64,000 nt of DNA from Erysipelatoclostridium sp. An173 (GTDB taxonomy: Bacteria > Bacillota_I > Bacilli_A > Erysipelotrichales > Coprobacillaceae): contig NZ_NFKR01000004.1 of NCBI RefSeq assembly GCF_002160495.1, forward strand, positions 1 to 64,000, read 5' to 3'. Numbering within the stretch: the first letter of the stretch is position 1; each line of letters begins with the position of its first letter. The translations under genes and the position numbers were made by a program. The notes under the pieces were generated by a model. The model was not told the origin of the DNA and ran no database searches. It saw only the letters and a list, made by a program, of their open reading frames with translations. Of the stretch, positions 10,678-22,594 are shown in pieces.

Positions 10678-12921
10678 ATGGATATAAAAGATCGGATGAT
10701 AAATTATGAACCGTTGTTTAATCAATGGTTGTTTGATGAACTATTAGAAATCCATGATCAAGAAGCATTAATTAAGGTAAAGCCGCAAGGAATAGAAACT
10801 GAAAAAGAAGCATATATCAAAGTAATTACGATTTACAATCAAAATGATAATTTAGAAGAATTAGAACAGCGCATGGCGCAGATTAAAACGGGATTGGGAC
10901 TTGATAATATTAACCAGACTGAATTTCTTGATTATGAACAATATTTAATTGAAAACAATCAAGGAATGATAATTGGAATGGATTTATGTTTGTTATTAGA
11001 AAATGATGATTATCAAATAACTGATATAGATAAATTAAATGGGCATTTATTATATGAAGAGGGATTGAAATTATTTGATCGCCGTCAATATCAACAAGCT
11101 TTAAAGTATTTTCAAAAAGGTGAAGAACTAGAAAACAGTGATTGTATTTGTATAATAGGATATCTATATGAACGTGGTTTAGCATTAAAACAGGATTATT
11201 TTCAAGCGCGCAAATATTATCAGCGTTCTAGTAATTTAGGAAATGTTGTTGCTAGCTGTAATTTAGCTTATTTATATGAACATGGATTAGGTGGTATCAA
11301 GGATTATCAAAAAGCTTTTGAATTGTATCGATACGGAGCAAAAGCTGGTTTTGCAAGAGCTATTTGTAATTTAGGATATTGTTATGAATATGGTCATGGA
11401 ACTCAAGCGGATATGGATAAAGCAGTTGAATGTTATATTGAAGCAGCACAACTAGGGTATAGTGAAGCACTGTTTTGTCTAGGAACCTGTTTAGAGTTTG
11501 GTGAAGGAATGGAGCAGGATTACTATCGTGCCTTTAAATGTTATGAAGAAGCAGCCAATCAGGGTCATGAACGTTCAGCCCATCGTTTAGGATACTGTTA
11601 TGAAACTGGTCAGGGAACGACTCAAGATTATGTTAAGGCGTTTTATTGGTATCAACATGCTTGTCAAGCTAATTATGCCCCAGCCTTTGTTTCTTTAGCT
11701 TATTGTTATGAAAATGGTTTAGGAACTGAAGTTGATTTAAAACAGGCAAGAAACAATTATTTAAAGGCGGCAAGATTAGGTTATGTACGCGGCCAATTCT
11801 GGTTAGGGTATTTTTATGAAGGGCATCCTGAAATCAAAAATGCCAGCTATCGAAGTACTTATTGGTATCGTCAGGCTTGTAAACAAGGTGATGTTCAGGC
11901 AATGGTAGCTTTAGGATATTGCTATGAAAGTGGTACTGGAGTAAAACAGAATCACAATAAAGCTGTTGCTTTGTATCAAGAAGCAGCTGATTTACAGTAT
12001 GCGCCGGCACAATGCAATTTAGCGTATTGTTATGAAGCTGGAATTGGAGTTGAGGTTGATTTAAAGCAGGCTATTAAATATTATCGTTTGGCTGCAAAAA
12101 TAAATTATCCTCGTGCTTTGTTTAATTTAGCTTATTTGTACGACCATGGTGAAGGGGTAGAAAAAGATCATCAAAAAGCTTTTGAGTTGTATTTACAAAC
12201 GGCTAATGATGATTATGCGCCAGGATTGTTTCAAGTAGGGTTAGCTTATGAAATTGGTCGAGGAGTAGAAGAAAATATTGATAAAGCCATGGATTATTAT
12301 CAAAGAGCAGCTAAGTTAAATCATACTGGGGCATTATATGCTTTAGGATTGATTTATGAAGAAAACTCTGATTACCATGACGATCATCGAGCGATTGAAT
12401 ATTATCAAAAAGGGGCTAAGTTAAATGATGCTCGTTCAATGTATCGACTAGCCTTATATTTAGATGAAGGTGAGTTTATCGAACGTGATTATCAACAGGC
12501 TTATAGCTATTTACAAAAAGCTGCTAAAAGTAACTATGGACCAGCCCAAAATATGTTAGGTGTTTATTTAGAAGATGGGCTGGGTTGTAAAAAAGATGCT
12601 AATTTAGCGTTTAATATGTATTTATCAGCAGCTAATAGTGATTATTATGCACCGGCAATATTTAATTTAGGACGTTGTTATTTTTATGGGATTGCTACAA
12701 CTGTTGATAAACAAACTGCTTTTGAAATGTTTTTTAAAGCGGCTAACCTGGATTATCCAGAAGCTAATTTTATGTTAGGATATATGTATAGCTATGGTGA
12801 TGGGATAGCTAAAGATATGGTTAAAGCTAAAGAATATTTGAAAAAAGCTGCTAACTCAGGGCTTAAAGAAGCTAGTGAAGAACTAGAAAAAATATATCAA
12901 AAAACTAAAGGAGATGAATGA
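10678..12921 (+). CDS. Sel1-repeat (TPR-like) protein
   Basis: A 747-residue cytosolic protein. After an N-terminal domain of about 120 residues that I do not recognise, about 16 consecutive Sel1-like repeats of 35-37 residues fill the rest (pattern A-x-x-x-LGYCYE-x-G-x-G-x-x-x-D-x-x-KA-x-x-x-Y-x-x-AA). Sel1 repeats form helical solenoids that scaffold protein complexes. There is no signal peptide or membrane segment, unlike secreted Sel1 proteins of some pathogens. AAAGGAG precedes the ATG. It overlaps the upstream end of the aminopeptidase ribosome binding region, so the two are probably co-transcribed. Partner proteins are unknown. Confidence 0.92.
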   Translation: MDIKDRMINYEPLFNQWLFDELLEIHDQEALIKVKPQGIETEKEAYIKVITIYNQNDNLEELEQRMAQIKTGLGLDNINQTEFLDYEQYLIENNQGMIIGMDLCLLLENDDYQITDIDKLNGHLLYEEGLKLFDRRQYQQALKYFQKGEELENSDCICIIGYLYERGLALKQDYFQARKYYQRSSNLGNVVASCNLAYLYEHGLGGIKDYQKAFELYRYGAKAGFARAICNLGYCYEYGHGTQADMDKAVECYIEAAQLGYSEALFCLGTCLEFGEGMEQDYYRAFKCYEEAANQGHERSAHRLGYCYETGQGTTQDYVKAFYWYQHACQANYAPAFVSLAYCYENGLGTEVDLKQARNNYLKAARLGYVRGQFWLGYFYEGHPEIKNASYRSTYWYRQACKQGDVQAMVALGYCYESGTGVKQNHNKAVALYQEAADLQYAPAQCNLAYCYEAGIGVEVDLKQAIKYYRLAAKINYPRALFNLAYLYDHGEGVEKDHQKAFELYLQTANDDYAPGLFQVGLAYEIGRGVEENIDKAMDYYQRAAKLNHTGALYALGLIYEENSDYHDDHRAIEYYQKGAKLNDARSMYRLALYLDEGEFIERDYQQAYSYLQKAAKSNYGPAQNMLGVYLEDGLGCKKDANLAFNMYLSAANSDYYAPAIFNLGRCYFYGIATTVDKQTAFEMFFKAANLDYPEANFMLGYMYSYGDGIAKDMVKAKEYLKKAANSGLKEASEELEKIYQKTKGDE

Positions 12922-12925
12922 TAAG

Positions 12926-14158
12926 ATGTCATTTAATGAAAATTTATTAAAATATGCTAGGTTGATTGTTAAAGCTGGTGTTAATGTTCAAAAAGGTCAA
13001 ATCGTAGTAATCGATGCTCCTGTTGAAAATGCTAAGCTTGCAAGAATGATTGCAAAAGAAGCTTATCTTGCTGGGGCAAGTGAAGTGGTAGTTAAATATA
13101 ATGATGAAGTGGTATCAAAGTATAAATATGAATATGAAGATATCGATAATTTTGGTAAAGTACCAGAATGGTTTGTACATTTTAGAAATGATTATGCTAA
13201 AAAGAATGCTGCAATTATAAGTATTCAAAGCAATGATCCTGAAGGTTTAAAAGGAATTGATCCTAAAAAGATCTCATTGTGGTCTCGTTCTGTGGCAATG
13301 GCTTGTAAGCCATTTTACGATGGGATGGATTTAGGAATAAATCCTTGGTGTATTGCAGCAGCAAGTTCAATAAAATGGGCTAATAAAGTCTATCCAGATA
13401 TGTCAGATAAAGAAGCGGTAGAAGCTTTATGGCAGGCTATTTTTAAAGCTTGTAAAGTTACATGTGATGATCCAATTGATGCGTGGCAACAACATCGTTA
13501 TAGTTTTGAAAAACGCGTTAATTATTTAAATGATTTAAATTTAAAAACATTGACATATACTAATTCACTTGGAACTAACTTAACAGTTACTTTAAATGAT
13601 GATTATTTATTTGCCGGTGGTGGAAGTTATAATAATGATGGAGTTTATTATTTTGCTAATATTCCAACTGAAGAAATATTTACTAGTCCATATCGAAATG
13701 GTACTAATGGGGTAGTATATAGTTCGATGCCGCTTAATTATAATGGTAATTTAATTGATAAATTTAAAATAGAGTTTAAAGATGGAAAAATTGTCGATTT
13801 TGATTGTGAAGTTGGAAAAGATGTATTAAATGAAATCATAAATATTGATGAAGGTAGTCATTATTTAGGAGAAATTGCTTTAGTTCCTTATGATTCAGCA
13901 ATATCTAATATGAAAACACTTTTCTATAATACTTTATATGATGAAAATGCTGCTTGTCATTTAGCAATTGGAAAAGGTTTTGGTGAATGTATAAAAGATG
14001 GTTTGAAATTAAGCAAAGAGCAGTTACTTGAAAAAGGAATAAATGATTCTTTAACACATGTTGATTTTATGATTGGTACCAGTGATTTAAATATTACAGG
14101 AACTACTAAAGATGGTAAAGAGGTCTTAATTTTTAAAGACGGTAATTTTGCATTTTAA
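12926..14158 (+). CDS. Aminopeptidase, M29 family (AmpS/PepS-like)
   Basis: A 410-residue thermophilic-type metallo-aminopeptidase that removes N-terminal residues from peptides using two Co/Zn ions. The N-terminal NLLKYARLIVKAGVNVQKGQ is the usual family start. Candidate metal ligands are visible in EGSHYLGEIALVP (Glu), ENAACHLAIG (His) and THVDFMIG (His, Asp). The ATG at 12926 is chosen since AAAGGAGATGA lies at suitable distance; the in-frame ATG at 12914 touches the ribosome binding site. It follows the Sel1 gene with nearly no gap and ends in its own terminator. Confidence 0.93.
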   Translation: MSFNENLLKYARLIVKAGVNVQKGQIVVIDAPVENAKLARMIAKEAYLAGASEVVVKYNDEVVSKYKYEYEDIDNFGKVPEWFVHFRNDYAKKNAAIISIQSNDPEGLKGIDPKKISLWSRSVAMACKPFYDGMDLGINPWCIAAASSIKWANKVYPDMSDKEAVEALWQAIFKACKVTCDDPIDAWQQHRYSFEKRVNYLNDLNLKTLTYTNSLGTNLTVTLNDDYLFAGGGSYNNDGVYYFANIPTEEIFTSPYRNGTNGVVYSSMPLNYNGNLIDKFKIEFKDGKIVDFDCEVGKDVLNEIINIDEGSHYLGEIALVPYDSAISNMKTLFYNTLYDENAACHLAIGKGFGECIKDGLKLSKEQLLEKGINDSLTHVDFMIGTSDLNITGTTKDGKEVLIFKDGNFAF

Positions 14159-14363: not shown

Positions 14364-15950
14364 ATGAGTGATATAAAAACAGAAGTTGAAAAAAGAAGAA
14401 CATTTGCCATCATCTCGCATCCAGATGCTGGTAAAACAACATTAACAGAAAAGTTTTTGTTATATGGTGGTGCTATCCAACAGGCTGGTAGCGTTAAAGG
14501 GAAGAAAAATAGTAAACATGCTACAAGTGACTGGATGGAAATTGAAAAACAAAGAGGAATTTCGGTTACTTCTTCCGTTTTACAATTTAATTATAATGGT
14601 TTTTGCATTAATATTCTTGATACTCCAGGCCATCAAGATTTTTCCGAAGATACTTATCGAACATTAATGGCTGCTGATTGTGCAGTAATGGTTATTGATG
14701 CAAGTAAAGGGGTCGAAGATCAAACTCGTAAATTATTTAAAGTTTGTACAATGCGACACATCCCAATTTTTACATTTATAAACAAAATGGATCGTGAGGC
14801 TTTAGATCCATATCAATTAATGGAAGAAATCGAACAGGAATTAGGAATCGACACTTGTCCAGTTAACTGGCCAATTGGTTGTGGTAAAGAATTTAAAGGG
14901 GTTTATGAACGTCATGCTAAAGAAGTAATTCGTTTTATCCCAGTTGATGGTGGACGTAAAGAAGTTGATACTAAAGTAATGCATTATGATGATCCAGAAT
15001 TAATTAATGAACTTGATGAAGAGTTATATAATAAATTACAAGAAGATGTTGAATTATTAGATATGGCTGGTAATGAATTTGATTTAGAAAAGGTTCGTAA
15101 AGGGCAATTATCACCAGTTTGCTTTGGTTCAGCTTTAACTAATTTTGGAATTGAACCATTTTTAAAACATTTCTTGGAAATGACAACTTCACCATTACCT
15201 AGAAGTACTGGAGAAAAAATGATTGATCCATTTAGTGAGGATTTTAGTGCTTTTGTTTTTAAGATCCAGGCTAATATGAATAAAGCACATCGTGATAGAA
15301 TGGCCTTTTTTAGAATCTGTTCTGGTAAATTTACTAAGGGAATGGAAGTTTATCATTATCAAGGTAAAAGAAAAATTAAGTTAAATCAATCTAAACAATT
15401 AATGGCTGATGAACGTCAGGAAGTTGAAGAGGCATATGCTGGAGATATTATCGGTGTTTTTGATCCTGGTATTTTCTCAATTGGTGATACAATTACTACT
15501 GGTAAAGAAAAATTTGCTTTTGAAGGAATACCAACTTTTGCACCTGAGCATTTTTCTTTGATTCGTAATAAAGATACAATGAAAAGAAAACAGTTTGTTA
15601 AAGGTGTAGAACAGATTGCTAAAGAAGGGGCAATTCAGATTTTTACCGAACTTGGCGGTGGAATGGAAGAAATAATTGTTGGTGTTGTTGGGGTACTTCA
15701 ATTTGAAGTATTAGAACATCGTTTAAAAACTGAATATAATGTTGAAATCATTAAAGAACCATTACCTTATCAATATATCCGCTGGGTAAAAACAGATAAA
15801 GATTTAAAATCATTGAATTTATCTAGCGATACTAAAAAAGTACAGGATTTAAAGGGACAGCATTTATTATTATTTACTAATGATTGGTCTGTACGCTGGG
15901 CTACTGAAAAGAATCCTGACTTAGAATTATTAGAATTTAGTAAGAATTAA
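14364..15950 (+). CDS. prfC: Peptide chain release factor 3
   Basis: Translational GTPase that recycles RF1/RF2 from the ribosome. The 528 residues match the RF3 norm. Seen: P-loop AIISHPDAGKTTLTEKFL with G1 residues, the switch region with RGISVTSSVLQF, DTPGHQDFSEDTYRTL (G3) and NKMDRE (G4). RF3 rather than EF-G is shown by the length and the C-terminal half with VGVVGVLQFEVLEHRLKTEY. A ribosome binding site AAGGAG precedes the ATG. It is monocistronic. Confidence 0.97.
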   Translation: MSDIKTEVEKRRTFAIISHPDAGKTTLTEKFLLYGGAIQQAGSVKGKKNSKHATSDWMEIEKQRGISVTSSVLQFNYNGFCINILDTPGHQDFSEDTYRTLMAADCAVMVIDASKGVEDQTRKLFKVCTMRHIPIFTFINKMDREALDPYQLMEEIEQELGIDTCPVNWPIGCGKEFKGVYERHAKEVIRFIPVDGGRKEVDTKVMHYDDPELINELDEELYNKLQEDVELLDMAGNEFDLEKVRKGQLSPVCFGSALTNFGIEPFLKHFLEMTTSPLPRSTGEKMIDPFSEDFSAFVFKIQANMNKAHRDRMAFFRICSGKFTKGMEVYHYQGKRKIKLNQSKQLMADERQEVEEAYAGDIIGVFDPGIFSIGDTITTGKEKFAFEGIPTFAPEHFSLIRNKDTMKRKQFVKGVEQIAKEGAIQIFTELGGGMEEIIVGVVGVLQFEVLEHRLKTEYNVEIIKEPLPYQYIRWVKTDKDLKSLNLSSDTKKVQDLKGQHLLLFTNDWSVRWATEKNPDLELLEFSKN

Positions 15951-16025: not shown

Positions 16026-16047
16026 TACGATGAAAGGGGTGATAACT

Positions 16048-16290
16048 ATTGCAAATATAGGAAAACGTCGCTTGTGTCGTTGTATTAAAACAATGAATAT
16101 TGTCATCGGTAAGCAACAGCGCGATTTATTTACTAAAGGTGAAGTTTATGATTGTGTTATCCGTGATAGTGGTCACCTGCAAATCAATTATAAAATTTAT
16201 GGTAAAGAGTTTGATTTATCATGTACTAAAGAAGAGTTTGAAGAAAGTTTCGTACTAATAAATAAAAAAACTGGAGTAAGAAAAAAATAG
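16048..16290 (+). CDS. Small hypothetical protein with apparent ATT start
   Basis: An 80-residue basic protein (IANIGKRRLCRCIKTMNIV at its start) of unknown function. It has a short beta-rich look (VYDCVIRDSGHLQINYKIYG) that might suit nucleic-acid binding, but no family is recognised. The frame is open from an ATG at 16030, yet a strong ribosome binding site AAAGGGGTGAT (16033-16043) lies downstream of that ATG and points to the ATT at 16048, eight bases after the GGGG. The out-of-frame TTG at 16049 stops after three codons. An ATT start is rare outside infC. It is followed 10 bases later by a GNAT gene, probably on the same transcript. Confidence 0.65.
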   Translation: MANIGKRRLCRCIKTMNIVIGKQQRDLFTKGEVYDCVIRDSGHLQINYKIYGKEFDLSCTKEEFEESFVLINKKTGVRKK

Positions 16291-16300
16291 GAGTAGTACA

Positions 16301-16822
16301 ATGAAATATGAATTATTGAAGTTAGAGGAATTTGATCGATTTTATCAAATATTATCAAATAATTTCCCTACTAAAGAAATTAAAGAGTATAATTATATGA
16401 AAGATACATTCCATGCTGGGCTTTATCAGGTACTAACATTAAAAGATAATGATCAAATTGTTGGAATTATGTCATTTTATCAACATGATGATTTTAGATT
16501 TATTGATTATTTTGCAATAGATGGTTCTTTAAAGGGAAAAGGTATGGGTAGCAAGATGTTGCAATATTTTATTAATTTAGATGATAAAATGGTTATTTTA
16601 GAAGTTGAACATCCTGAAGATGAACAAAGTAAACGGAGAATTGCTTTTTATCAACGCAATGGTTTATATTTAAATAATCAGTTTGAATATTTTGTACCGC
16701 CAGTAAGAAATTTAAAACATCGTTTGTATTTTCATTTAATGTCTTCTAAACGAAAAATAAATAATATAGAGTTTGAAAAATATTATCCTCAAATCTTAAA
16801 AATGGTTTATGGAATAGAATAA
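16301..16822 (+). CDS. GNAT-family N-acetyltransferase
   Basis: A 173-residue acetyl-CoA-dependent acetyltransferase. The acetyl-CoA binding motif A is visible as KGKGMGSKMLQYF (residues 79-91), preceded by the strand FRFIDYFAID and followed by EVEHPEDEQSKRRIAFYQRNGLY, which fits motif B with the usual FYxRxGF-like end. The ribosome binding site GGAG lies 8 bases before the ATG. It follows the small ATT-start gene and precedes an extended promoter for the P-type ATPase gene. The acceptor substrate is unknown. Confidence 0.85.
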   Translation: MKYELLKLEEFDRFYQILSNNFPTKEIKEYNYMKDTFHAGLYQVLTLKDNDQIVGIMSFYQHDDFRFIDYFAIDGSLKGKGMGSKMLQYFINLDDKMVILEVEHPEDEQSKRRIAFYQRNGLYLNNQFEYFVPPVRNLKHRLYFHLMSSKRKINNIEFEKYYPQILKMVYGIE

Positions 16823-16823
16823 T

Positions 16824-16852
16824 TTGGCAAATCTATGTGGATATGCTAAAAT
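16824..16852 (+). promoter_or_regulatory. Promoter of the P-type ATPase-like gene
   Basis: TTGGCA (16824-16829), 17-base spacer and TAAAAT (16847-16852) with an extended TG two bases before the -10. Confidence 0.7.
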
Positions 16853-16879
16853 TAAGTGAAAATCAGAAAGGAGATTATA

Positions 16880-18829
16880 ATGGCTAGTAATTTCTATATC
16901 GATAATATTAACGATAGTGACAAGTTAAATGAAATTACTCTTTTGTTAAACGGGATGGAAGAAGTATCCCGTATCAAAGTAGGGAAAACGGGTATTTCAT
17001 TTTATTGTGAAGAACCAGAAAATGTCCAGCAGCTATTAAAAAATGCCGGGGAGGATTTGGTCTTAAAAGAAGAAGTTAATTCTAGAAAAAGAGAATTCGT
17101 TCCTACAGAAAAAAAAGTAGAACATATTTTTATGTTTACTAATTTAGAAAGCGAAGAAGATGCTAAACAAATTAAAGAAGTAATTTCACGTTATTCGGCT
17201 TATGAAAACGTAAGTCTTGATTTTGCAAATAAGTTATTAAAAGTAACTACAAGTGATAAAAAAGTACTTGTAAGATTAAATCGTTTGGTTGATAAAGTTA
17301 ATCCCGCAATTGATGTTGAACTTTGGAAAAAACCTTTTAGATCACAAGATTTATTTCAAGAAAAATATTTAAAAGCAATGATTAGAATTGCTATTTTAGT
17401 AGTTGCTTTATCATTAGGGATTGTAACAAGAGAGGATCCTAATATCATAACTAGACTAGGATGGTTAGTAACCTGGTTAGTCGTAAGTGAAAAAACACTA
17501 ATACAAGCATATAAAGATATAAAAGTTAAACAATTTATTAGTGAAAATATTACTATTACTGTAGCATGTTTATTTGGAATTATTTATGGTGCTTATGTAG
17601 AAACGATTTTTGTGGCAATTGTTTATCAATTAGGAGAACGTTTATTATTAAAATTATTAGGATATTCAATTGATAAAGTTGATGATGCTATTAACCCAGT
17701 CACTTTAGGAAGACGAGAAATTGGTGAAAACGATTATGAGATGGTTTCGCTAGAAGATGTTGATATTGGTGATATTTTAGTAGTTTTACCTGGAGAAACA
17801 ATTCCTTTAGGAGGAGTAATTGAATCGGGAACAAGTGAGCTTGATGTTTTTGCTATCAACGGAAGTGAAGTTTTAGAGGAAGTTAAACCTGGAGTTGAAG
17901 TTCAAAGTGGTAGTGTTAATGTTAAAGACACTTTGAGAATTAAAATATTGTATACATATGAACGTAGTGCGATGAATAAGATCTTAGAAATCGCGATGAT
18001 GGCACCAGCTGGAACTTCAAAAACGCATCGAATTGTAGAATTGGTTAGTAAGGTTGATTCAATATTATTTGTTGTTATTGGTATCTTGTGTGCAGTATTT
18101 ATACCGTTATTAGATTGGGAAAATAATTTTAGATTTATGTATGCTGGGATTATCTTTTTAACAATTTCAGGAACATTTGCTTATAAACAAGCTTCTTCAT
18201 TTGCGGTTCTAACTGGGGTTGCTAAAGCATTTTCTGAAAACATTATTATAAAAGAAAATAGTGGTTTGGATGCTTTGAATTCTTGTCGAACTATTATTTA
18301 TGATCGTTTTGATGGTGTTGAGGTTAGTGAAGAAGAAATGGATTTATTTGCTAAGCTTTCAAAATTAAATCGAGATTTAATTATTTTTAATGATGGTCCC
18401 GTTGATCTTGAAGATGATCAATATCGAATTTACAATAATTTATCTGTTGAAGAAAAATTAGAGATAATGGATAAGGCAAGTATTGCTGGTCCAGTTGCTT
18501 ATATTGGTGATAACTCAAAAGATATTGCTTTATTGCAAAAATCATATGTTGGAATTAGTCGTGGTGGAATTAAAGATAAAAAAGTTATTGATAATAGTGA
18601 TATTATGTTAATGAATTCGGATTTAAATACTGTTATTGAAACATTTATGATTTCTAGAAAACAAAAAGCGATTACTTTAGAAAATATCTTCTTTGGTTTA
18701 TTTGTTGAATTAGTATTAATGGTTGTGGCAATGGTTAATGTTTTACCATGGTGGTTAGCATTAGTTGTAAATCTATTAATTTCTGTACTATTATTATTTA
18801 ACACTCATAGAATTTTTAATATGAAATAA
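16880..18829 (+). CDS. Degenerate P1B-type ATPase homologue (probable pseudoenzyme)
   Basis: A 649-residue membrane protein with heavy-metal P-type ATPase layout: two HMA-like domains (about 1-60 and 78-145, neither with CxxC), paired helices, an actuator domain, a helix pair and a haloacid-dehalogenase-like end. Every catalytic motif is altered. The TGE loop reads INGSEV (residues 327-332), the CPC helix reads SGTFAYK (430-436), and DKTGT reads DRFDG from Asp475. Only about 68 residues separate Asp475 from GDNSKD (543-548, normally GDGxND), so most of the nucleotide-binding domain is missing. The frame is unbroken, with a good promoter and AAAGGAG, suggesting selection for a non-pumping role. 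The next gene encodes a YbjQ-family protein. Confidence 0.85.
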   Translation: MASNFYIDNINDSDKLNEITLLLNGMEEVSRIKVGKTGISFYCEEPENVQQLLKNAGEDLVLKEEVNSRKREFVPTEKKVEHIFMFTNLESEEDAKQIKEVISRYSAYENVSLDFANKLLKVTTSDKKVLVRLNRLVDKVNPAIDVELWKKPFRSQDLFQEKYLKAMIRIAILVVALSLGIVTREDPNIITRLGWLVTWLVVSEKTLIQAYKDIKVKQFISENITITVACLFGIIYGAYVETIFVAIVYQLGERLLLKLLGYSIDKVDDAINPVTLGRREIGENDYEMVSLEDVDIGDILVVLPGETIPLGGVIESGTSELDVFAINGSEVLEEVKPGVEVQSGSVNVKDTLRIKILYTYERSAMNKILEIAMMAPAGTSKTHRIVELVSKVDSILFVVIGILCAVFIPLLDWENNFRFMYAGIIFLTISGTFAYKQASSFAVLTGVAKAFSENIIIKENSGLDALNSCRTIIYDRFDGVEVSEEEMDLFAKLSKLNRDLIIFNDGPVDLEDDQYRIYNNLSVEEKLEIMDKASIAGPVAYIGDNSKDIALLQKSYVGISRGGIKDKKVIDNSDIMLMNSDLNTVIETFMISRKQKAITLENIFFGLFVELVLMVVAMVNVLPWWLALVVNLLISVLLLFNTHRIFNMK

Positions 18830-18864: not shown

Positions 18865-19167
18865 ATGGATATGATTGAAATGAGTACAATGGATTATATT
18901 CCTGGTTATAAAATAACTAAGAATTTAGGTATTGTTTTTGGTAGTAAGATTCTAAATCAGGCTTTAGAAAGCGATGATAATATTGATATTGAACAATTAT
19001 TAGATGCAAAACGTCAAGATGCAATGGCTTTAACAGTAGAACAAGCTATGCGTCGTCATGCTAGTGCGATTATTAATGTTCGTTTTACAACTACTAATTT
19101 AGGGCATAATATGATTGAATGCCAGGTTTCAGGAATGGCAGTAAAGGCTGAAAAGATTGATGAATAA
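18865..19167 (+). CDS. YbjQ/UPF0145 family protein
   Basis: A 100-residue protein of the YbjQ (UPF0145, putative heavy-metal-binding) family. Family features seen: the start IPGYKITKNLGIVFG, the central block with an Ala/Arg-rich helix (AKRQDAMALTVEQAMRRHA), and AIINVRFTTTNLG toward the end. Members form ring-shaped pentamers; their function is not settled. GGAGG lies 8 bases before the ATG. It follows the degenerate P-type ATPase by 35 bases and overlaps the next pseudouridine synthase gene by 8 bases, so the three form one transcription unit. Confidence 0.88.
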   Translation: MDMIEMSTMDYIPGYKITKNLGIVFGSKILNQALESDDNIDIEQLLDAKRQDAMALTVEQAMRRHASAIINVRFTTTNLGHNMIECQVSGMAVKAEKIDE

Positions 19168-21295: not shown

Positions 21296-21460
21296 GTAAA
21301 TGAAAAGTAGTGGAAAGAAGAAGTGCCTGCTTCTCGCCCGATTGATTAAGTCGATGGGCAAATGTCACTAAGATATAGTTATCTTAATGTCAGTGTGTGG
21401 GTACTTAGTGTGCTCACTTTTTATTTAAACTACAAACTGCACAAGATGGAGGTGGCTTTT
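21296..21460 (+). promoter_or_regulatory. L20-type attenuator leader
   Basis: About 165 bases of leader precede infC. A terminator-like hairpin (21397-21404 with 21410-21417, 8 pairs including two G-U) is followed by a T-rich tail (21418-21426). The upstream CACTAAG (21366-21372) is a perfect complement of CTTAGTG (21404-21410), which forms part of that hairpin, so the two structures exclude each other. In Bacillota the infC-rpmI-rplT leader is bound by ribosomal protein L20, which promotes termination; the arrangement here fits. Confidence 0.75.
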
Positions 21461-22000
21461 ATTAGCAGATTTGATAACAGAAAACCAAAACAACCAGATG
21501 AGTTAGTAAATGAAAAAATCCGTTTTAAAGAAGTATTGGTAATTGATCAAAATGGTGAACGTTTAGGAGTTAAAAGTCGTAATCAAGCAATCGATTTAGC
21601 TTATAACGAAGGTCTTGATTTAGTGTGTGTTGCTCCAAATGCAAAACCACCAGTATGTAGAGTTATGGATTTTGGAAAATATCGTTTTGAACAGCAAAAG
21701 AAAGCTAAAGAAATGAAACGTAATTCTAAAGTTGTTGCTTTAAAAGAAACTCAATTGTCAGTGACAATTGATGTACATGATAAAAATGTTAAATTAAAAA
21801 GAACATTGAAATGGTTAGAAGAAGGAAATAAAGTTAAAATTGCAATTAGATTTAGAGGACGTCAATTGGCTCATACGGAACTTGGTAAAAAAGTTATTGA
21901 TGACTTTGTAGCTGAATGCGAGGAAGTAGGGCAAATTGAAAAGCCTGCAAAGCTTGAGGGTAGAACCTTAACTGCAATAATTGCACCAAAGAAAAAATAA
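21461..22000 (+). CDS. infC: Translation initiation factor IF-3
   Basis: IF3 binds the 30S subunit and enforces correct start-codon selection. The protein begins [20 protein letters not shown] and has the family segments [20 protein letters not shown] and [19 protein letters not shown]. The ATT at 21461 is the likely start: GGAGG (21448-21452) lies exactly 8 bases upstream, and 179 residues is the normal size. In-frame ATGs upstream overlap the ribosome binding site or the attenuator. An AUU start is established for infC in E. coli and Geobacillus and allows IF3 to repress its own translation. Confidence 0.93.
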
Positions 22001-22017
22001 TTCAGGAGGAATATATT

Positions 22018-22212
22018 ATGCCAAAAATGAAATCACACAGTGGTCTTAAAAAACGTTTAAAAAGAACAGGTAGCGGTAAATTGAAACGTAGTCATGCTTA
22101 CACTTCACATTTATCACACAATAAAACTCATAAACAAAAGAAACATTTGGCTAAATCAGGATTAGTTAGTGCTTCAGATTATAAGAGAATTAAATCAAGA
22201 TTACCAAAATAA
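22018..22212 (+). CDS. rpmI: 50S ribosomal protein L35
   Basis: A 64-residue basic protein of the large ribosomal subunit. The start [20 protein letters not shown] is the family signature, as is the His/Lys-rich middle ([11 protein letters not shown]). AGGAGG precedes the ATG. It is the second gene of the infC-rpmI-rplT operon, 17 bases after infC, and is controlled by the same L20-type leader. Confidence 0.97.
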
Positions 22213-22234
22213 TTGATGTAGGAGGAATGAATAA

Positions 22235-22594
22235 ATGGCAAGAGTAAAAGGTGGATATACTACTAGACATAGAAGAAAAAAAGTATTAAAATTAGCCAAA
22301 GGATACTATGGTTCTAAACATAGATTATATAGAACAGCAAATGAACAAGTAATGCATTCATTAGCTTATTCATATCGTGATAGAAGACAAGTTAAAAGAG
22401 ATATGAGAAAATTATGGATTGCACGTATTAATGCTGCTGCTAGATTAAATGATATCTCATATTCTAAATTAATGCATGGTTTAAAATTAGCTAATGTTGA
22501 AATCAACCGTAAAATGTTATCTGAAATTGCAATTAGCGATCCAAAAGGATTCACTGCAATCGTAGATACAGCTAAAAAAGCTTTAGCTAAATAA
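22235..22594 (+). CDS. rplT: 50S ribosomal protein L20
   Basis: A 119-residue, strongly basic protein that binds 23S rRNA early in 50S assembly and, in Bacillota, also the leader of its own operon. Seen: the N-terminal [21 protein letters not shown], the segment [15 protein letters not shown] and the C-terminal domain with [18 protein letters not shown], the part that recognises leader RNA in related systems. AGGAGG lies 9 bases before the ATG. It is the last gene of its operon and is followed by a strong terminator. Confidence 0.98.

Follow-up and report, generated by a model that had tools for sequence, protein, structure and literature searches.

A P1B-ATPase-derived membrane protein without a nucleotide domain is conserved in Coprobacillaceae beside a four-cysteine protein

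We analyzed a stretch of 64,000 nucleotides from Erysipelatoclostridium sp. An173 (contig NZ_NFKR01000004.1, positions 1 to 64,000), referred to below as the window. It contains a gene for a membrane protein derived from a P1B-type ATPase, which we call the pseudo-pump. The gene, its ribosome binding site and its neighbors are listed here.

14364..15950, + strand: prfC (peptide chain release factor 3), the syntenic upstream anchor (ORF, locus comparison)
16030..16290, + strand: conserved partner of about 80 aa with near-invariant C16, C18, C42 and C65, of no known family (locus comparison, searches)
16301..16822, + strand: GNAT acetyltransferase between the four-Cys gene and the pseudo-pump, in some members only (domain match, locus comparison)
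16867..16873, + strand: ribosome binding site AAAGGAG, ending 6 nt before the ATG of the pseudo-pump (read directly)
16880..18829, + strand: pseudo-pump, 649 aa, without nucleotide domain (ORF, Pfam/NCBIfam matches, 32 intact orthologues)
18865..19167, + strand: YbjQ-family protein (PF01906), a lineage-specific neighbor (domain match, locus comparison)

The frame of the pseudo-pump was unbroken over 649 codons, from the ATG at 16880 to the stop codon at 18827-18829, in agreement with the first-pass annotation. That annotation had also proposed a promoter and a ribosome binding site. The latter was read directly, but the promoter part did not stand equally well: the promoter-like sequence TTGGCA-17-TAAAAT with a TG at 16824-16852, upstream of the gene, belongs to a class of sites that was not enriched near the pseudo-pump (21 observed against 22.7 in shuffled sequence), so that a promoter here is no more than plausible. 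Near the locus, no Rfam element was found at the gathering threshold. The infC-rpmI-rplT operon of the window (21362-22594) was without an Rfam leader match at the same threshold. Elsewhere in the window, a gene for a Sel1-like repeat protein of 747 aa (10678-12921) overlaps the beginning of the gene that follows it (12914-14158).

The domains and motifs of the pseudo-pump were located as follows.

16880..17059, + strand: HMA-like domain 1, aa 1-60, no CxxC (AlphaFold2 secondary structure, motif scan)
17114..17329, + strand: HMA-like domain 2, aa 79-150, no CxxC (AlphaFold2 model, weak Pfam HMA match, motif scan)
17858..17866, + strand: actuator loop NGS replacing TGE, aa 327-329 (motif comparison)
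18170..18178, + strand: M4 site Gly-Thr-Phe replacing CPC, aa 431-433 (alignment to canonical Zn/Cd ATPases)
18284..18649, + strand: P (HAD) domain, aa 469-590, the most conserved domain (invariant-residue count)
18302..18316, + strand: DRFDG replacing DKTGT, aa 475-479, with D475, R476 and D478 invariant (family alignment)
18389..18400, + strand: NDGP, aa 504-507, invariant, at the probable motif II position (TGD in pumps; equivalence inferred)
18455..18457, + strand: K526, the motif III Lys, invariant and common to pumps (alignments)
18506..18523, + strand: GDNSKD replacing GDGxND, aa 543-548, with D544, K547 and D548 invariant (alignments)
18557..18568, + strand: SRGG, aa 560-563, with invariant R561 replacing a pump Met (alignments)

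Pfam E1-E2_ATPase (PF00122) matched the pseudo-pump with E=1e-19, and the same domain was found in 21 of 21 family members scanned. The NCBIfam heavy-metal ATPase models matched it at 158 bits, where the cut-off is 346 bits, and the nearest solved structures by sequence were ZntA and other P1B pumps. An AlphaFold2 model of the whole protein was built with 7 close sequences in the alignment and had a mean pLDDT of 48; we regard it as usable for the N-terminal domains only. Both HMA-like domains were predicted there with the secondary structure b-a-b-b-a at a pLDDT of about 70-80, while their support from sequence was weak (HMA E=0.16). Together with the motif scan, this prediction bore out an earlier description of two N-terminal HMA-like domains without CxxC. 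The membrane helices appeared in the expected P1B order (eight are expected) in this low-confidence model, and the hydropathy profile showed several weaker peaks besides four strong ones. P1B pumps were ranked first by Foldseek with the same model, which added little beyond the sequence matches.

Full-length members of the family were found in 32 genomes of 11 genera, all of them Coprobacillaceae, the family of Thomasclavelia. All nine Thomasclavelia genomes carried one; identity to the window protein was 69-83% in the other eight and 33-52% in homologues from the ten further genera. Searches of 392 genomes from the phylum and 294 from the order with the same profile found no member outside Coprobacillaceae. 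The lowest score of a member was 805 bits, whereas canonical pumps reached 213 bits at most.

Pairwise dN/dS within Thomasclavelia was 0.03-0.22, with a median omega of 0.12 (0.08 in the P domain); the unsaturated pair at dS 0.19 gave 0.033, and most other pairs, having dS near or above 1, gave approximate values. The pseudo-pump family is under purifying selection. The view that this is a selected gene was therefore upheld, with 32 intact orthologues, DKTGT in none of them and low dN/dS, and decay in a single strain was rejected.

When canonical ATPases from these bacteria were included in a tree, the family came out as monophyletic, beside the Zn/Cd P1B pumps. The clade joining the two had an SH-aLRT of 99, and the stem branch of the family measured 1.69 changes per site. 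Besides the pseudo-pump, the window genome encodes nine P-type ATPases, among them one of the canonical Zn/Cd type (L004) with CPC, TGE and DKTGT. Divergent relatives of about 594 aa were present in two genomes (G010, L061:7008-8792; G009, L062:1933-3714). In the tree they joined the family, by very long branches and with unsure placement, and they have lost both YDRxD and GDxxKD. A P-type ATPase on another long branch (L102, G022:C1, near 2291140) has DKTGT, but its M4 carries YSC instead of CPC.

The motifs of the pump cycle were lost throughout the family. DKTGT was found in 0 of 32 members, being replaced by DRFDG or close variants that keep the Asp. No member had TGE, its place being taken by NGS, NGN, DGS, DGN, DGD or NTS, so that the Glu was absent in all 32; CPC in M4 and the CxxC metal-binding sites of the HMA-like domains were likewise absent from every member. 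The hinge GDGxND was also missing in all, and GDxxKD stood there in 32/32 with both Asps kept. The distance from motif I to the hinge was 66-68 residues, as opposed to 185-197 in canonical Zn/Cd ATPases; the nucleotide domain, roughly 120 residues, is missing from all 32 members. Each alteration named in the first-pass annotation (DRFDG, INGSEV, no CPC, GDNSKD and the missing nucleotide domain) was thus verified in the sequence or alignment. Its statement that the protein cannot pump in the known way also holds as far as can be read from the protein sequence, which offers neither a nucleotide domain nor the TGE Glu nor CPC. Since it has no ATP site, the pseudo-pump presumably does not pump.

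The description of the protein as catalytically dead was correct in one part: the ATP-driven cycle is excluded. It did not fit the P domain, the most conserved of all the domains, in which no member departs from the nucleophile Asp, Lys526 or the two hinge Asps. Of the 49 residues invariant in the family, 26 lie in the P domain (hypergeometric p=1.7e-8), which also had the lowest column entropy, 0.92 against 1.29-1.89 in the other domains. Residues identical in the family and in canonical pumps include D475, K526, G543, D544, D548, D574 and the membrane residues E222 and E241. Fixed changes relative to pumps were K to R476, T to F477, N to K547 and M to R561. The new invariant set of the family consists of YDRxD (32/32 members), NDGP, GDxxKD and RGG, and both Mg-site Asps are invariant as well. 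NDGP was equated with the TGD loop from the order of secondary structures, the automatic alignment being unreliable around it. A new invariant charged set, R476, D478, K547 and R561, surrounds the old phosphorylation Asp. A role in ligand binding or catalysis is likely for this rebuilt site because of its conservation, and the residues retained suggest that the P domain probably binds, or acts on, a phosphate-like ligand. This function is not kept everywhere, because the relatives in G009 and G010 have lost even the Asp motif.

The first-pass annotation had paired the pseudo-pump with its YbjQ neighbor, and this pairing proved to be a local one. YbjQ adjoins the pseudo-pump in seven of nine Thomasclavelia genomes. 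It is absent in G006, and in T. cocleata (L016:7950-8320) a frame-broken remnant follows an intact pseudo-pump. In all other genera whose locus was examined, YbjQ was absent from beside the pseudo-pump. YbjQ was therefore rejected as a partner outside Thomasclavelia; the conserved neighbor is the four-Cys protein.

The four cysteines of this protein of about 80 aa sit in CxC, YxC and LSC. In each genus that has full-length members, its gene was found upstream of the pseudo-pump, in the same orientation in all members examined, and the divergent relative of G010 has it upstream too. It was not found with the divergent relative of G009, which directly follows prfC. Where prfC is not adjacent (g5, g7 and part of g11), the four-Cys gene stays linked to the pseudo-pump. 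In g7 it overlaps the pseudo-pump start, and in g13 two other genes are inserted between them. Among 395 genomes of the class, the only sign of the protein outside Coprobacillaceae was a single short and marginal match (E=8e-4). Profile searches of Pfam and PDB with it found no relative. Its fold was predicted to be a barrel (pLDDT 73), for which a fold search gave no significant match and weak SH3-like ones. The protein probably binds a metal or has a redox role.

Six genera lack both genes; their clean locus runs from prfC through glycerate kinase and RluA to infC, usually with a membrane protein after prfC. In most of these genera, the slot after prfC is taken by a membrane protein of about 210 aa (YWWTLLY...), located at L117:8117-8743, L118:8535-9191, L119:7945-8586, L120:9038-9673 and L121:8399-9031. 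An orphan four-Cys gene was found without a pseudo-pump in G016 (L114:10021-10251). The next ORF on the same strand there has a P-loop-like motif. Co-occurrence of the two genes gave a genus-level Fisher p of 0.001, which is not to be taken at face value since the genera without the pair may be one clade. The co-occurrence is weak evidence because it may reflect a single evolutionary event, at best one joint gain or loss, and for the same reason presence and absence count for less as evidence of a functional link.

Taken together, a new, non-pumping job for the pseudo-pump is very likely. We put at about even chances a reading in which the P domain was rebuilt, clade-wide, into a new ligand-binding or catalytic site, so that the protein would be an ATP-free membrane receptor or enzyme acting with the undescribed four-Cys protein. 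More specifically, and tentatively, the role best supported among those considered is that of an ATP-independent membrane sensor or regulator, derived from a pump, that would work with the four-Cys protein; we would place this somewhat below an even chance. Early in Coprobacillaceae, a paralogue of a Zn/Cd-exporting P1B ATPase would have lost the nucleotide domain, TGE, CPC and CxxC, and the stripped paralogue would then have been fixed in a new role. Its P domain may bind an anion, of the phosphate type or another, in a way that depends on conformation and may or may not involve Mg2+. The A domain and the membrane helices might relay the state of the P domain to the four-Cys protein, or receive a state from it. 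Speaking for this reading are the losses and new motifs common to all 32 members, the monophyly and long stem branch, the low omega, the concentration of invariant residues in the P domain and the linkage to the four-Cys gene; against it stand the low confidence of the whole-protein model, the possible single event behind the co-occurrence, the orphan four-Cys gene of G016 and the lost Asp motif in G009 and G010.

The main rival is a membrane-anchored HAD phosphatase or phosphotransferase, which we consider rather unlikely. After loss of the cap (nucleotide) domain, the open P domain would act through D475 on a phosphorylated protein or small molecule. The invariance of the motif I Asp, the motif III Lys and the motif IV GDxxxD speaks for such an activity, and the sole non-pump among the P-domain profile matches listed was phosphoserine phosphatase 1l7o, a weak match (E=0.06). 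However, the second acid of the motif I DxD is Phe, Tyr or Ile, with an acid at +3 rather than +2, the Thr/Ser of motif II appears to be Asn, and R476, K547 and R561 may fill the Mg2+/phosphate site.

In another reading, those three basic residues would be salt-bridged to the Asps of the former active site and lock the protein in one frozen pump conformation. It would then be a scaffold or subunit for a second membrane protein, for which the cell's own Zn/Cd ATPase is a candidate. New invariant basic residues do stand beside invariant acids, and the genome still has a canonical Zn/Cd ATPase, but so many invariant polar residues in one pocket exceed the apparent needs of a scaffold, and the A domain and membrane parts, the surface that would do the scaffolding, are less conserved. 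We consider this unlikely.

Passive or gated conduction of an ion by the membrane core without ATP would be consistent with Glu222 and Glu241 being kept as in pumps. It would also suit the subclade of g5, g6, g7, g12, g14, g17 and g19, which mostly keeps the M5 Lys and M6 Glu that align with K and D of Zn/Cd pumps. Yet CPC is lost in all members, no residue of M5/M6 is invariant across the family and the Lys/Glu pair is absent from the window's own subclade, which makes an ion pathway improbable. A decaying pseudogene or an assembly artefact, which the loss of many pump motifs might suggest, is hardly credible and is refuted by the homologues, with 32 intact frames in different genomes and dN/dS of 0.03-0.22.

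Kept under strong selection without DKTGT and the nucleotide domain, and most tightly constrained in the retooled phosphorylation site, the family would be a natural example of a pump converted to another use. With it, one could test whether P and A domains are able to sense or catalyse in the absence of ATP. A literature search found no paper on a pump-dead P-type ATPase family of this sort.

Compared with known systems, the pseudo-pump is closest to the Zn/Cd P1B-2 ATPases (ZntA/CadA; PDB 4umv and 7qbz; TIGR01525 and TIGR01512), its sister group. Both have the domain order of HMA-like domain, core helices, A and P, as well as Pfam E1-E2_ATPase, the phospho-acceptor Asp, the motif III Lys and the hinge Asps. 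Unlike them, it is without the nucleotide domain, DKTGT, TGE, CPC and CxxC, and it scores far below the family cut-offs. Similarity-based annotation would probably label it a heavy-metal pump, and this would mislead. With HAD phosphatases such as 1l7o, a weak match, it has in common the motif I Asp, the motif III Lys and the motif IV GDxxxD; in contrast to them, it has no second motif I Asp at +2, carries extra invariant Arg/Lys residues and is a pump-like membrane protein. The YbjQ family (PF01906) is a neighbor in Thomasclavelia only and lies outside the conserved unit. DKTGT is the mark by which almost every P-type ATPase is recognised (PMC3896382). In the survey of UniProtKB in that study, 99.77% of the sequences had the motif, and the 22 of 9,634 without an intact DKTGT had single point changes (PMC3896382). 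The pseudo-pump resembles these in being without an intact DKTGT, but differs in that a whole clade has YDRxD and has lost the nucleotide domain.
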